From Phycisphaerales bacterium (GTDB lineage: Bacteria > Planctomycetota > Phycisphaerae > Phycisphaerales > UBA1924): DNA of 64,000 nucleotides. The notes under the pieces are model-generated. The model was given only the letters and a program-made list of their open reading frames with translations, did no database searches and had not been told where the DNA came from. Each line of letters begins with the position of its first letter. Position 1 is the stretch's first letter. Position numbers and translations under genes: made by a program. Positions 54,156 through 59,890 of the stretch are shown piece after piece. The DNA is taken from contig JAGQOH010000005.1 of NCBI GenBank assembly GCA_020427635.1, positions 1 to 64,000 on the forward strand, read 5' to 3'.

Positions 54156-54731
54156 ATGGTCATGCTGCGCCATCCAGGTCGGCCCTTCGGTGACCCCGCA
54201 CACAGCGGCGGTGGAGGCTACGTCCCCGCGCCGAGCGAGCAGGGCATTCCGGGCCAGACCCCCGGCGGCCGCCTGAACCTCCTGCTGTCCTCCACCGATT
54301 GGCGCGAAGAGACCTGGGCCGACCATCTGCCCCGCCTGCTCTCGCCCATGGGGGTACACGCGGTGCGCGTCCGGTCGGGGCGCGAGGCGGGCGAGGTGCT
54401 CAAGACCACCCGCATCGATATCGCGGTCGTCGACCTGAGCCTGCCGCTCGATCACACCGCCCACATCGACGAAACAACCGCGCGCCTCGAAGGCGGCATG
54501 CGTCTGCTCGAACTGCTCTTCCGCTCCGTTGCGCCGCCACCGACGCTCGTCGTCAAGCGCCGGCGCACCACACGCGAAGAAGCGCGCGAGATCGCCCATG
54601 CCCTGCGCGCAGGCGCATTCGCGGTCATCGACCGCCCGGTGCGCATGGAACTGGTGCTGCAAACCATGCAGCGTGTGCTCAAGAAGTATTACCGCGACCA
54701 ATGGCCCGACTGCTGCAAAGGCGAGGGCTAA
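54156..54731 (+). CDS. Degenerate response-regulator receiver protein
   Basis: 191-residue protein: a ~38-residue Gly/Pro-rich start and then one CheY-like receiver domain. The likely phospho-acceptor is Asp93 in IDIAVVDLSLPL. The usual acidic pair near the first strand is reduced (LLLSSTDWRE, only Asp48), and the conserved Lys after the last strand is Arg160 (FAVIDRPVRM). A ~15-residue insert follows Asp93. There is no output domain. It may be an atypical or phosphorylation-independent receiver. It lies 90 bases before groS on the same strand; relation to heat-shock control is unknown. Confidence 0.65.
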   Translation: MVMLRHPGRPFGDPAHSGGGGYVPAPSEQGIPGQTPGGRLNLLLSSTDWREETWADHLPRLLSPMGVHAVRVRSGREAGEVLKTTRIDIAVVDLSLPLDHTAHIDETTARLEGGMRLLELLFRSVAPPPTLVVKRRRTTREEAREIAHALRAGAFAVIDRPVRMELVLQTMQRVLKKYYRDQWPDCCKGEG

Positions 54732-54748
54732 CGCATCGCAACATCGTT

Positions 54749-54788
54749 CACGTTTGTTTTTTGAATCACAGTTTCTGAATCACGTTTG
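54749..54788 (+). promoter_or_regulatory. Direct repeats in the groE leader
   Basis: CACGTTTG occurs at 54749-54756 and 54781-54788, and TGAATCAC at 54762-54769 and 54776-54783, in an AT-rich patch just before groS. No CIRCE element (TTAGCACTC-N9-GAGTGCTAA) is present. A regulatory role is a guess. Confidence 0.35.
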
Positions 54789-54821
54789 GAAAGTTTGAAG
54801 GACTCGAAAGGGAAAGAAACC

Positions 54822-55181
54822 ATGGCAACCGCAACGGCGCCGCGCAAGAAGACGACGACCAGCTCATCATCATCCAAGGGCAAACTCGCCTCGAAGATTC
54901 GCCCCCTGCATGACAAAGTCATCGTGCAGCGCGATGAGGCCGCGACCATCACCGATGCAGGCATCTATCTGCCCGAATCCGCGAAGGACACGCCCAAGAG
55001 CGGCACCATCCTGTCCGTGGGCGATGGCGCAATCAATCACGACACGGGTGATCGCATTCCGCTGACCGTCAAGAAGGGCGATCGCGTGATCTTCTCGAGC
55101 TACGCCGGCACCGAAGTCAAACTCGACGGCGAAGAGCTGCTCATCATGTCCGAGAGCGACATCCTCGCGGTTGTTGAGTGA
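54822..55181 (+). CDS. groS: Co-chaperonin GroES
   Basis: 119-residue GroES. KIRPLHDKVIVQRDEAATIT is the first strand and the mobile loop region follows (AGIYLPESAKDTPKSGTILS); VKKGDRVIFSSYAGTEVKLD and the C-terminal ILAVVE are typical. It caps the GroEL cage. An additional ~22-residue N-terminal extension (ATAPRKKTTTSSSSSKGK) precedes the core. The ATG at 54822 is preceded by AAGGGAAAG. Confidence 0.95.
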   Translation: MATATAPRKKTTTSSSSSKGKLASKIRPLHDKVIVQRDEAATITDAGIYLPESAKDTPKSGTILSVGDGAINHDTGDRIPLTVKKGDRVIFSSYAGTEVKLDGEELLIMSESDILAVVE

Positions 55182-55192
55182 TTGGCTGATCA

Positions 55193-55399
55193 ATGACCAC
55201 CGACCAACTCCGCCAGGCGCTCAAGGAACTCGATGGCAAACGCGACGCCGCGTTCTCCTTTGGCGGCGCGGCAAACGCCTGCACCGTCACCAACGCGATG
55301 CTCGTGCCCGACGAAGCGGATCACCTGATCAAGCTCACCGACGGCAAGCATGTCTTCATCATCGACGCCGAGCGCGTTGATTGGGTCCGCATCGGCTGA
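55193..55399 (+). CDS. Small protein encoded between groS and groL (68 aa)
   Basis: 68-residue protein starting MTTDQLRQALKELDGKRDAA and ending in two probable beta strands (HVFIIDAERVDWVRIG). It begins 11 bases after the groS stop and ends about 54 bases before the groL ATG, on the same strand. No family recognised. The compact alpha-beta pattern and mixed-composition sequence look like a real small domain. A chaperonin-related function is only suggested by position. Confidence 0.7.
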   Translation: MTTDQLRQALKELDGKRDAAFSFGGAANACTVTNAMLVPDEADHLIKLTDGKHVFIIDAERVDWVRIG

Positions 55400-55426
55400 A
55401 ATCACAAACACACTCAGAAACACTGA

Positions 55427-57088
<1,662 letters not shown>

Positions 57089-57108
57089 GCTAGCACCGGC
57101 ACATCAGC

Positions 57109-57143
57109 GCTGTCAGGCGGGAAGCTGCCCGACAGTGCTTTTC
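57109..57143 (+). terminator. Probable terminator of the groE operon
   Basis: GCTGTC (57109-57114) pairs with GACAGT (57131-57136); inside it GGC pairs with GCC next to a single mismatch, and GCTTTTC follows. Imperfect, with a short T-run. Confidence 0.5.
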
Positions 57144-57165
57144 ACCAAGTAGAATAGGGCCCTGG

Positions 57166-58539
57166 ATGGCCGAATCAGCCCAATACTTCAAATTCGTAGT
57201 CAACAGTCTACGGACCAAGGACCAATGGGTATCACGGACTGGCGGACTAGTAATAGCATTGTCATCTGGACTCGCAGCGGCTTACGTGGCTTGGTTGATT
57301 CTGGAGCCGACCAGTGGTTCGGATGCAAGCGAACGCGCCTCATACCTCATTGCAGTTGCACTGGTTTTCGTAGGGGCTTTTGGAACGGGACTTGGCCTGT
57401 GGTGGGCAGGAAGAGAATTTTACTACCGAAGCGGCGCAGGGCGCCGAGTCGCGGTGTCTTTCTCGCATCACAGGCTCGACCCTCTTGACTTCGCCTATGC
57501 TCGACGCGCCTTGGAGCGCGAGATCGAAGACTCGCGACGCCCGAGGATTTCGGTGCGCCGCCTTCCGCCCGAGTTGGTGGATAAGGATTCCAAGCGAGAA
57601 AGGTTTCTGAAACGGTACAAGATTGACCATGAGCTGCGCGTGCTTGTGTCCCCCGTAGGCAAGAGTGGCGCGCGCTATCGCCTCGATTGGGAATCCGGAA
57701 ATATGCAAGCCGTTGATGTGCGGCTAAAGGACGCCATTGGCCAGCTAATGGACATGCTTGGTGCGCAAAGCGTTAAGGCCAGGAGTATCACTGAGCTTCT
57801 GGAGCAGCAGTCGCGCATTGTCTACGAGATCCTGTTGGTTGGCCTTGGTATGACGGCATTCGTAAAAGGGAATTTTGAGGAGGCATCCAGTTTCCTCTCG
57901 TCACTGGATGACTGCCTCGGCGAAAAGTGGAATGAGACACATCACATCAGGTTTGACGTCAGATGGACAGACCATCTATGTCGGACCTCCCTTGCGGCAT
58001 TTCCTGGCAATGATCCACCCGGACCGGAGAGGTTGGAACAGCTTCGGGCGATTACACAAAGCACAGTTGATCGATACGGTCGCCAGTTTCCCATTTGCCT
58101 GGCGGCCCACTCGAGAATCCTCTTTTATCTTGGTGATTTGGATGGCGCACTCGCCGCAACCGAGGCGGGCCTGAGTCGGATTGAGCGAGGGCGGCCCTTG
58201 TTGCTGCTGAACAGAGCAGTTCTGCACCTGTTTCTGTCAAACTGGAAGAAATCAGCGACAGCATTTGAAGAATTCTTTGCAACGAAGGAAATCAACAGGT
58301 TCAACTGGGATGATCTTGTTGGGTTTGCAGAGTGTGCGCGCGACCACAAATACGATGCGGCGGTCTACTTGCTCGCGCTCTATTGGAGAATCAAGAATCG
58401 GGAAGGCATGCCCATCGGTCTCTATGAAGACGCGGACAAGTGGGTTCAGACGGACAAGTCAAAGGGGCATCTGCGGAGCATTCTGCACAAGGCACCTCGC
58501 CTAGCGCCGAAACCAGACGATAAACGTGGGGCCAAGTGA
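57166..58539 (+). CDS. Unknown two-helix membrane protein with TPR-like C-terminus, low-GC accessory gene
   Basis: 457-residue protein without a recognised family. Two hydrophobic helices (about 27-46, GGLVIALSSGLAAAYVAWLI, and 60-80, YLIAVALVFVGAFGTGLGLW) are followed by a basic mixed alpha/beta region (about 90-190, with RRVAVSFSHHRLDPLDF and HELRVLVSPVGKSGARYRLD). A helical, TPR-like tail runs from about 205 to 430 (GDLDGALAATEAGLSRIERG). Codon use and base composition (roughly half G+C in its first 300 bases by eye) differ sharply from the neighbours. Together with the GNAT remnant right after its stop, this points to acquisition by transfer. A TAGAAT at 57150-57155 could be a -10 box, leaving almost no leader. 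A defence or signalling role is conceivable but not shown. Confidence 0.75.
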   Translation: MAESAQYFKFVVNSLRTKDQWVSRTGGLVIALSSGLAAAYVAWLILEPTSGSDASERASYLIAVALVFVGAFGTGLGLWWAGREFYYRSGAGRRVAVSFSHHRLDPLDFAYARRALEREIEDSRRPRISVRRLPPELVDKDSKRERFLKRYKIDHELRVLVSPVGKSGARYRLDWESGNMQAVDVRLKDAIGQLMDMLGAQSVKARSITELLEQQSRIVYEILLVGLGMTAFVKGNFEEASSFLSSLDDCLGEKWNETHHIRFDVRWTDHLCRTSLAAFPGNDPPGPERLEQLRAITQSTVDRYGRQFPICLAAHSRILFYLGDLDGALAATEAGLSRIERGRPLLLLNRAVLHLFLSNWKKSATAFEEFFATKEINRFNWDDLVGFAECARDHKYDAAVYLLALYWRIKNREGMPIGLYEDADKWVQTDKSKGHLRSILHKAPRLAPKPDDKRGAK

Positions 58540-58621
58540 CCGCCCCCTCACCCCCGACGACGCGCCCCGCGAGGTCGCACTGCGGCAGCGGATGCCCATC
58601 AGCGCCACGCCCTTCGCCTGA
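58540..58621 (+). pseudogene. Remnant of a GNAT gene 5' end
   Basis: Bases 58540-58594 match 59319-59373, the 5' part of the intact GNAT gene, at 50 of 55 positions. In the corresponding frame it reads RPLTPDDAPREVALRQRM against RPLTPDDAPRYVALRLRM, then diverges and stops at 58619-58621. It has no start codon of its own and lies immediately after the stop of the accessory gene. Best explained as a decayed or truncated duplicate. Confidence 0.85.
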
Positions 58622-58648
58622 CTGATTGACATTCCGAGAAGAGGGGGT

Positions 58649-58668
58649 GCGGGGGAGCCCTCCCCCGC
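58649..58668. other. Perfect GC hairpin
   Basis: A nine-pair inverted repeat (58649-58657 with 58660-58668) between the GNAT remnant and the convergent membrane-protein gene. No T-run on either side, so termination is unproven. Confidence 0.45.
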
Positions 58669-58710
58669 GCAGCGCCATCATCATCGTCAACACCACGACG
58701 TTGACCCCGC

Positions 58711-59238
58711 TCAGCCCGCCGCGCCGCCGCCAAGCGTCATCGCCGCCGCAACCTGCGCCGCGAACATGCCAAGCCCAAGCAACAGGGGCCGCACCGCCTT
58801 GCGCCACTGGCGCCGCTCATCGATCCCAAGCCACGCGAGCGCGCGCGGCGACAACGCCAGATAGATGATGATCACGCTGCCCCAAGCGATGCGCGTGCCG
58901 TGGCGAATGTAGACCAGCGTTTCATCTGCGGGCATGCCGCGTGCCGCGAGCATCTCGACGCCGTGCTCAACATCGAGAATCTTCGACGCGTTGAAGAAGA
59001 TGCTCCACGTGTAATACGTGATCGCGCACTCCCAGCCAATCGCTTTGCCGCGCCAAAGCCCAATGCACGCGAAGATGGCGCACAACTCCGCGATCGCAAA
59101 GACGATCAAGATCAATGCCGCGGTCACCGGCCGGCTGCCAAGCATGGCAACCATCGCGAGGATGACCAGCGGCAGGAACACCGCGGAGAAGCCGAACAGA
59201 ATCGACAAGATCGTGACGAAGACAGGTCGTTTGGGCAT
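58711..59238 (-). CDS. Four-helix membrane protein, unknown
   Basis: 175-residue protein starting MPKRPVFVTILSILFGFSAV with about four membrane helices (including LILIVFAIAELCAIFACIGL and IAWGSVIIIYLALSP). No family recognised with confidence; it resembles small uncharacterised inner-membrane proteins. Divergent from the GNAT gene by 69 bases. Confidence 0.75.
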   Translation of the reverse strand: MPKRPVFVTILSILFGFSAVFLPLVILAMVAMLGSRPVTAALILIVFAIAELCAIFACIGLWRGKAIGWECAITYYTWSIFFNASKILDVEHGVEMLAARGMPADETLVYIRHGTRIAWGSVIIIYLALSPRALAWLGIDERRQWRKAVRPLLLGLGMFAAQVAAAMTLGGGAAG

Positions 59239-59307
59239 CGTCGGCCTCCGGAGACTGCCTATACCACGCCGCAGCGCACGCGCAAAGCTTCTTCATAAGA
59301 TTCCGCC

Positions 59308-59811
59308 ATGACGCAGCCCCGCCCCCTCACCCCCGACGACGCACCCCGCTATGTCGCACTGCGGCTGCGCATGGTCACCGAATCGCCATGGTCATTCCTC
59401 GGCACGCCGGGCGATGACGCCGGGCTCGATGAGGCCATCATGGCGCAGCGCCTCGCCGAGCCGGAGAACAAGATCTTCGCAGTCGAGGGGGACGCGGGAG
59501 AGCTCATCGCCGCTGCCGGCATCTATCGCTCGCCGCGCATCAAGACGCAGCACAAGGCGAACATCTGGGGCGTGTATGTCGCGCCCGAGGCGCGTGGCAG
59601 GGGGCTCGGGCGCGCCGTGATGCAAAGCGCCATCGACGCCGCCCGCACGTGGCCCGGCGTGTGCGTGATCAGCCTGTCAGTCACGGAACGCGCCCCGGCC
59701 GCCAAGGCGCTCTACGAATCGCTCGGCTTCAAGACGTGGGGCGTCGAACCCAACGCCACCGGCCTCGATGGCCAATACATCGATGAGATCTGGATGCAGC
59801 TGGTGCTGTGA
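59308..59811 (+). CDS. GNAT family N-acetyltransferase
   Basis: 167-residue GNAT enzyme. IWGVYVAPEARGRGLGRAVM (about 89-108) is motif A with the acetyl-CoA pyrophosphate-binding R-G-x-G-L-G, and AKALYESLGFKTWG is motif B. The substrate is unknown; RimI-like and small-molecule acetyltransferases share the fold. A partial duplicate of its 5' end lies at 58540. Confidence 0.9.
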   Translation: MTQPRPLTPDDAPRYVALRLRMVTESPWSFLGTPGDDAGLDEAIMAQRLAEPENKIFAVEGDAGELIAAAGIYRSPRIKTQHKANIWGVYVAPEARGRGLGRAVMQSAIDAARTWPGVCVISLSVTERAPAAKALYESLGFKTWGVEPNATGLDGQYIDEIWMQLVL

Positions 59812-59814
59812 TTC

Positions 59815-59851
59815 CCAAAAACTACAAAGCCTCGCGATTCACTCGCGAGGC
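59815..59851 (-). terminator. Terminator of rpsR
   Basis: GCCTCGCGA (59829-59837) and TCGCGAGGC (59843-59851) form a perfect nine-pair stem with a five-base loop. On the minus strand it is followed by TTTGTAGTTTTT. It may also stop the convergent GNAT transcript. Confidence 0.82.
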
Positions 59852-59890
59852 GCTCTTAGTCAACTCAGATCGCGGCGTCGCCGCGAAGTC

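Follow-up and report, generated by a model that had tools for sequence, protein, structure and literature searches.

Genes and features behind groEL in the window

The window, the whole 64,000-nucleotide stretch of a Phycisphaerales bacterium contig that was analyzed, carries a groES-linked groEL gene at positions 55454 to 57088 (plus strand). It is preceded in the same direction by an ORF (54786 to 55181, plus strand) which, from its sequence, we take to be groES. The named relatives of the groEL belong to Phycisphaerales and Phycisphaeraceae genomes derived from metagenomes, which makes the host a planctomycete of this order. Behind groEL and in the same sense lies gene X (57166 to 58539, plus strand), a frame of 457 codons with an ATG start codon 77 bp past the groEL stop. 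According to a simple stop-codon model, the chance expectation for a frame of this length is 3e-7. The GC content (0.547) and GC3 (0.592) of X are the lowest among the called genes of the window, the means of the 48 other genes being 0.627 and 0.768. X is a real ORF, and this per-gene check bore out the first-pass annotation, in which the composition of X departs from that of its flanks.

Between groEL and X, a stem-loop followed by TTTC was detected (57106 to 57139, plus strand; folding energy, −24.6 kcal/mol), which was missed by stricter terminator scans and is possibly a weak terminator or attenuator. With this stem-loop and its short T-run in between, read-through from groEL would be partial. 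A scan with the heat shock CIRCE motif revealed no element within 3 mismatches, and no sigma-70-like promoter was found in 54600 to 59400.

The window was compared with G001, a genome of the same genus. Their alignment (82%) runs as far as position 57089, the first base beyond the groEL stop, and resumes at position 59890 (rpsR); the stretch in between is a variable slot that is not alignable (57089 to 59889). In the slot of G001, an IS200-like transposase gene takes the place of X, and X was found nowhere in that genome. The earlier view of X as a transferred accessory gene is thus supported, if exchange is taken to be covered by transfer: the GC-poorest gene of the window is missing from a congener whose flanks align.

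Immediately behind the X stop codon begins a decayed GNAT remnant (58540 to 58621, plus strand) that had also been pointed out before and that corresponds to the 5′ part of such a gene. The remnant reads DRPLTPDDAPREVALRQRMPISATPFA-stop, and its positions 58540 to 58594 are 91% identical to positions 59319 to 59373, the 5′-terminal part of an intact GNAT acetyltransferase gene (59308 to 59811, plus strand; Acetyltransf_1, E=1.3e-18), which is the last gene of the slot. The resulting 55-bp direct repeat encloses a called ORF on the other strand (58711 to 59238, minus strand) for a 175-aa membrane protein with no family over the cut-off in profile searches. Such a repeat may stem from a duplication of the GNAT unit or indicate a junction left by recombination.

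Two further ORFs have counterparts in the loci L011, L012, and L013. One of them, a small ORF (68 aa, 55193 to 55399), lies between groES and groEL, matches no family over the cut-off, and corresponds to ORFs of 67 to 77 aa at the same place. The other (191 aa, 54156 to 54731) is located upstream of groES, as are its counterparts, looks by eye like a response-regulator receiver, and may regulate the groESL operon.

Relatives of X and predicted structure of the protein

In agreement with the first-pass annotation, X could be assigned to no Pfam, NCBIfam, or PADLOC family. In PADLOC-DB 2.0.0, no family was matched with an E value of 1 or less, and PycTM (PF18967) was absent from the profile matches at E up to 1. 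The designation "orphan" had to be given up, because X has seven relatives, most of them at the same position. Among 397 genomes of the class, six genuine relatives were found (E 3e-52 to 7e-18), and a seventh, in G466, came to light when the 163 genomes of the family were searched with a profile. The seven proteins are 18 to 29% identical to X and have length and layout in common with it; the tree of the eight proteins is mostly unresolved.

Five of the eight X members follow a groES-linked groEL, either immediately or with one gene in between. In G302, G254, and G311, the X member is the next gene after groEL, in the same sense and at a distance of 47 to 83 bp, and in G213, which belongs to another family, one gene stands between groEL and the X member. 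Beside the X members of G466, G260, and G133, groEL was not found, and no known defense neighbor was recognized near them. Within the family, X is sporadic (5/163 genomes; 4/163 at groEL). Its position is therefore not kept in most relatives, as would be expected of a core gene of the groESL operon, and the copies at this position are GC-poor too instead of matching their surroundings.

The intervening gene of G213 is a trypsin-like protease ORF (L010:10740-11564; motif recognized by eye, no Pfam match). In G432 (L163), where X is missing, the slot contains a relative of this ORF (28%, E 1e-6). Trypsin-like protease/nuclease pairs are the subject of PMC12799240, as far as the excerpted text of that paper goes.

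No relatives of X were found in plasmids, phages, or viral contigs, and none when genome contigs were searched with the single X protein. A sample of 343 genomes from across the phylum yielded no copy besides that of the window, and 60 near relatives of the window genome yielded only two matches, both due to chance. L002 and L003 were dropped as X relatives, since by sequence the matches lie inside RmuC-like (L002) and MurG-like (L003) ORFs. Seven weak matches (E 4.8e-5 to 8.2e-4) comprised the TPR part only and were not counted.

AlphaFold2 modeling on the eight X members (mean pLDDT, 84; pTM, 0.76) predicts a transmembrane (TM) hairpin, an alpha/beta domain, and a TPR tail. The predicted hairpin (residues 24 to 45 and 54 to 88; codons at 57235 to 57429, plus strand) agrees with hydrophobic segments at residues 28 to 46 and 61 to 79 and thus with the two membrane helices described in the first-pass annotation; simple hydropathy analysis gave two N-terminal hydrophobic peaks in 7/8 members. 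Since the stretch after the hairpin is basic, the rest of X is placed in the cytoplasm by the positive-inside rule. The predicted middle domain (residues 93 to 199; codons at 57442 to 57762, plus strand) has the order b-a-b-a-b-b-a, and residues 90 to 190 are net basic, as had been read from the sequence. Modeled alone, this domain is of low confidence (pLDDT, 68), and fold searches with it gave nothing significant (Foldseek E 0.18 or worse; VIA Z of at most 3.7, with other folds on top). PelC, TolB, FlgT, and anticodon-binding domains head or recur in its Foldseek list, all of them insignificant, and offer a lead at most.

The tail (residues 208 to 442; codons at 57787 to 58491, plus strand) is modeled as the helix-turn-helix superhelix characteristic of TPRs, mostly with a pLDDT over 85, which fits the helical repeat tail proposed earlier. 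TPR_2 (PF07719) matched it at E=3.6e-4 with 20.9 bits, not reaching the curated cut-off of 27, and among the fold matches to TPR domains the highest VIA Z was 11.0 (105 residues; rmsd, 2.3). Fold searches with the whole model also led to TPR proteins (best Foldseek E 1.7e-3).

Invariant among the X members are M1, W79, Y86, G90, G92, P134, Y151, L224, R266, L290, R317, F320, L353, F387, L405, Y406, and W426. No acidic residue, histidine, cysteine, or serine is among them as a catalytic candidate, and therefore a role of X as a sensor or pore is more likely than that of an enzyme.

Content and turnover of the slot behind groEL

Since the X members have this place in common and yet are rare, the other content of the place behind groEL was surveyed. 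A groES-linked groEL was located in 121 of the 163 family genomes; 120 groEL regions were fetched, including eight from other families of the order. Six of 122 family groEL places, at which groEL ends at or near a contig edge, were left out, and the counts exclude loci with less than 1.0 to 1.3 kb downstream of groEL. In 113 loci, none of them chosen for X, GC content was compared with the background upstream of groEL. The final 500 bp of groEL deviated from it by +0.005, and the 500 bp adjoining the stop on the downstream side deviated by −0.079; the following bins showed offsets of −0.066, −0.044, and −0.023, and the difference was about zero by 3 kb. The background slice is ill-defined when groEL is at a contig start (e.g., L010 and L115), and the comparative counts use groEL's own GC content.

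We defined a low-GC slot as one in which bases 100 to 1000 past the stop are at least 0.07 below the GC content of the anchor gene. Such slots were found behind the groES-linked groEL (groEL1) in 44/113 loci, but behind groEL2/3 of relatives in 1/20, behind groEL of other phyla in 7/58, and behind the control gene lipA in 3/70 (p=2.7e-8 versus groEL1). By genus, 29/67 genera have at least one low-GC slot, the mean per-genus fraction being 0.37; genera without one include g3 (0/6) and g15 (0/3). In a first small panel (groEL1, 4/27; lipA, 1/29), the excess was not significant (p=0.19). A set of 20 genomes was picked mostly for an occupied slot, so that its groEL1 count (18/20) reflects selection and only the lipA count (1/20) is informative.

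The first gene caller, trained on the codon usage of each locus, missed low-GC genes, and an open-frame significance test was used instead. A significant low-GC ORF was present in 57/112 loci that were not fetched for X and had at least 1.3 kb downstream, and in 49 of these 57 the first significant ORF was in the groEL sense. With the five X loci included, 62/117 loci were occupied, 54/62 in the groEL sense (p=1.7e-9 for sense). A terminator-like hairpin was detected in 31/62 occupied versus 45/56 unoccupied loci (p=0.001), a scan that GC differences may affect. The sense bias and the fewer terminator-like hairpins in occupied loci suggest groESL read-through into the slot.

Turnover is high among close relatives. 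In genus g24, each of the seven genomes (7/7) has a different insert, with no mutual similarity in an all-against-all comparison, although their groEL genes are 88 to 96% identical in DNA. In each pair reported, the alignment between g24 genomes breaks off −4 to +7 bases from the groEL stop. Four of these genomes share a right flank, in which homology is back after approximately 1.15 to 1.6 kb, with 87 to 90% identity. Conserved flanks with variable content were thus found among close relatives both in g24 and between the window genome and G001.

Of 80 reference ORFs from the slot, 70 were searched with Pfam and 74 with PADLOC; of the ten ORFs outside the Pfam set, four were X members and the other six were secondary, ran antisense, or overlapped. 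Over the Pfam cut-off were, among others, TIR_2 (L071 and L082), CAP12/Pycsar TIR (L127, L136, L138, and L155), NACHT (L128), the AbiJ N-terminal domain (L139), PIN-like (L082 and L122), Hypoth_Ymh (L087), protein kinase (L109), DUF3644 (L118), HD (L141), helicase (L143), Peptidase_M78 (L142), DUF4365 (L167), and an IS200-like transposase (L061). L151 was assigned to CAP12/Pycsar TIR by homology and by a genome-wide search with PF10137. Under the cut-off were SIR2_2 (L120, L133, and L179), DUF4062 (L131), and DUF3800 (L114); DUF4062 is treated as a TIR-like NADase in the excerpted text of PMC13174449. Many slot ORFs matched no Pfam family.

Immune-type Pfam domains over the cut-off are present in 9/57 occupied loci without X (seven TIR, including L151; one NACHT; one AbiJ), and in 15/57 if sub-threshold SIR2-like and homologous TIR-like loci are added. 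With PADLOC, 114 families were matched by the 74 slot ORFs, compared to 30 by 79 control ORFs located at least 2.3 kb downstream in the same loci. PDC-S35 and TIR effectors have five members each in the slot, whereas the control families listed have one member each. Without any selection for GC, 5 of the 18 PF10137 domains in the 163 genomes sit 489 to 985 bp behind groEL, where 0.01 is expected; of the X copies in the same genomes, 4/5 are located at groEL. The PF10137 and PADLOC counts thus reveal enrichment of defense genes, while SIR2_2, likewise an immune family, runs counter to it (0/20 domains in the slot in 75 sampled genomes). In summary, the family has a slot behind groEL with GC-poor, mostly groEL-sense, and immune-enriched content that turns over within genera, and we regard this place as a hotspot with good confidence.

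In L138 and L151, the CAP12/Pycsar-type TIR gene is preceded by a gene for approximately 150 aa, and the two possibly form a two-gene unit; L134 has only a short N-terminal stretch in common with the 150-aa gene. IS200/REP-type transposase-like genes were seen in or near the slot in L061:4230-4748, L160, L124, and L010:6550-7068 (by Pfam for L061 only, the rest by eye).

Possible role of gene X

Defense-gene hotspots beside core genes are already known, among them the core defense hotspots of Pseudomonas aeruginosa (Johnson et al. 2023, NAR, as cited in the excerpted text of PMC12926258). The groEL slot resembles core-gene-anchored hotspots in its fixed conserved flanks and in defense-type content that varies between close relatives. 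It differs in its anchor, the 3′ end of the groESL operon, in cassettes mostly of one or two genes, in content mostly in the sense of the anchor, and in that no integrase was recognized among the slot ORFs inspected. The open-access literature searched yielded no report of a defense hotspot at the groEL 3′ end; in the excerpted text of PMC10270631, groEL is a blot control, and in that of PMC12926258 the matches to groL are to an author name.

X has no described family member in the libraries searched. From the company it keeps in the slot, we infer with moderate confidence that X is a defense gene. Of the suggestion that it may belong to a defense or stress system, the possible defense role is favored by context, an exchange hotspot rich in immune-type genes. 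We lean toward the view that X occupies an exchangeable defense slot starting at the groEL stop and acts as a single-gene, membrane-anchored antiphage sensor or effector that uses the groESL transcript. Recombination between the conserved flanks (groEL at one end, and at the other rpsR or a different housekeeping gene) would exchange the cassettes, and slot genes would be expressed at least in part by read-through from the groESL promoter. The N-terminal hairpin would anchor X in the inner membrane, with the remainder in the cytoplasm; detection of a phage product or of a perturbation of the cell could fall to the small alpha/beta domain together with the TPR tail, and upon activation the hairpins might assemble and damage the membrane (abortive infection).

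Two kinds of known effector invite comparison. Short or single-gene TIR or CAP12/Pycsar effectors (PF10137) occupy the same slot in relatives, but profile searches revealed neither a TIR, SIR2, or NACHT domain nor a nuclease domain in X. PycTM is a membrane-hairpin effector of CBASS and Pycsar systems, and X similarly has two N-terminal TM helices followed by a predicted cytoplasmic part. What sets X apart are its alpha/beta domain and long TPR tail, the lack of a PycTM match, and the fact that no cyclase neighbor was recognized.

The most serious rival, which we nevertheless consider unlikely, is that the slot is a neutral landing site where AT-rich cargo of every kind (defense genes, IS elements, toxins, or junk) is tolerated because the terminator insulates it, X having no particular immune role and being, e.g., a stress or envelope protein. 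The transposase of G001, transposase-like first genes in G463 and G003 (by eye), the many slot ORFs without a family, the terminator-like hairpins kept in half of the occupied loci, and the lack of SIR2_2 enrichment would all suit such a site. The strong groEL-sense bias (54/62) and the bias to immune-type genes do not, and such inserts are missing downstream of lipA and groEL2/3.

We regard as improbable that X is a dedicated chaperonin partner, i.e., a membrane-tethered TPR co-chaperone or client adaptor of the groESL operon that was lost in most lineages. It would explain that members are linked to groEL in each of two families (f1 and f11), the same sense of all five linked members, and the spacing of 47 to 83 bp in four of them; TPR domains of Hsp70/Hsp90 co-chaperones are also among the fold matches, though any TPR would match these. 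However, X is present in only 5/163 family genomes, with unrelated genes at the same place in congeners, its GC content is low, 3/8 members are away from groEL, and the X copies are 18 to 29% identical, compared to approximately 80% for groEL. Very improbable is a stress-regulated membrane protein of host physiology (a TM, TolB-like, and TPR signal transducer kept in few lineages): the domain order is like that of TM-TolB/CadC-like-TPR signal proteins, and there are weak structural hints (the CadC periplasmic domain at Foldseek rank 38 for the whole model, and the insignificant PelC, TolB, and FlgT hits of the middle domain), but no match is significant, X is sporadic, fast evolving, and in an exchange slot, and by charge distribution its middle domain is predicted to be cytoplasmic, whereas TolB/CadC-like domains of known signal proteins are extracytoplasmic.

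A wider proposal is conceivable, which we put forward more tentatively: the groESL 3′ end could be a plug-in site for innate immunity in Phycisphaerales, where cassettes of one or two genes are swapped exactly behind the groEL stop and use the chaperonin transcript, so that defense would be constitutive and raised under stress or infection. X would then found a new antiphage family combining membrane hairpin, alpha/beta domain, and TPR tail. The groEL stop codon would mark a ready source of short defense systems in a phylum with little-studied phage biology, and with half of the sampled loci occupied, many by genes without a family, each occupant is a cheap, testable candidate. The chaperonin is needed by many phages, and the question arises whether bacteria couple immune genes to its operon so as to have them expressed or their products folded. 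In loci of other phyla (L191 to L260; 7/58), the GC content also dips behind the groEL stop, though less strongly, and similar slots may exist there as well.
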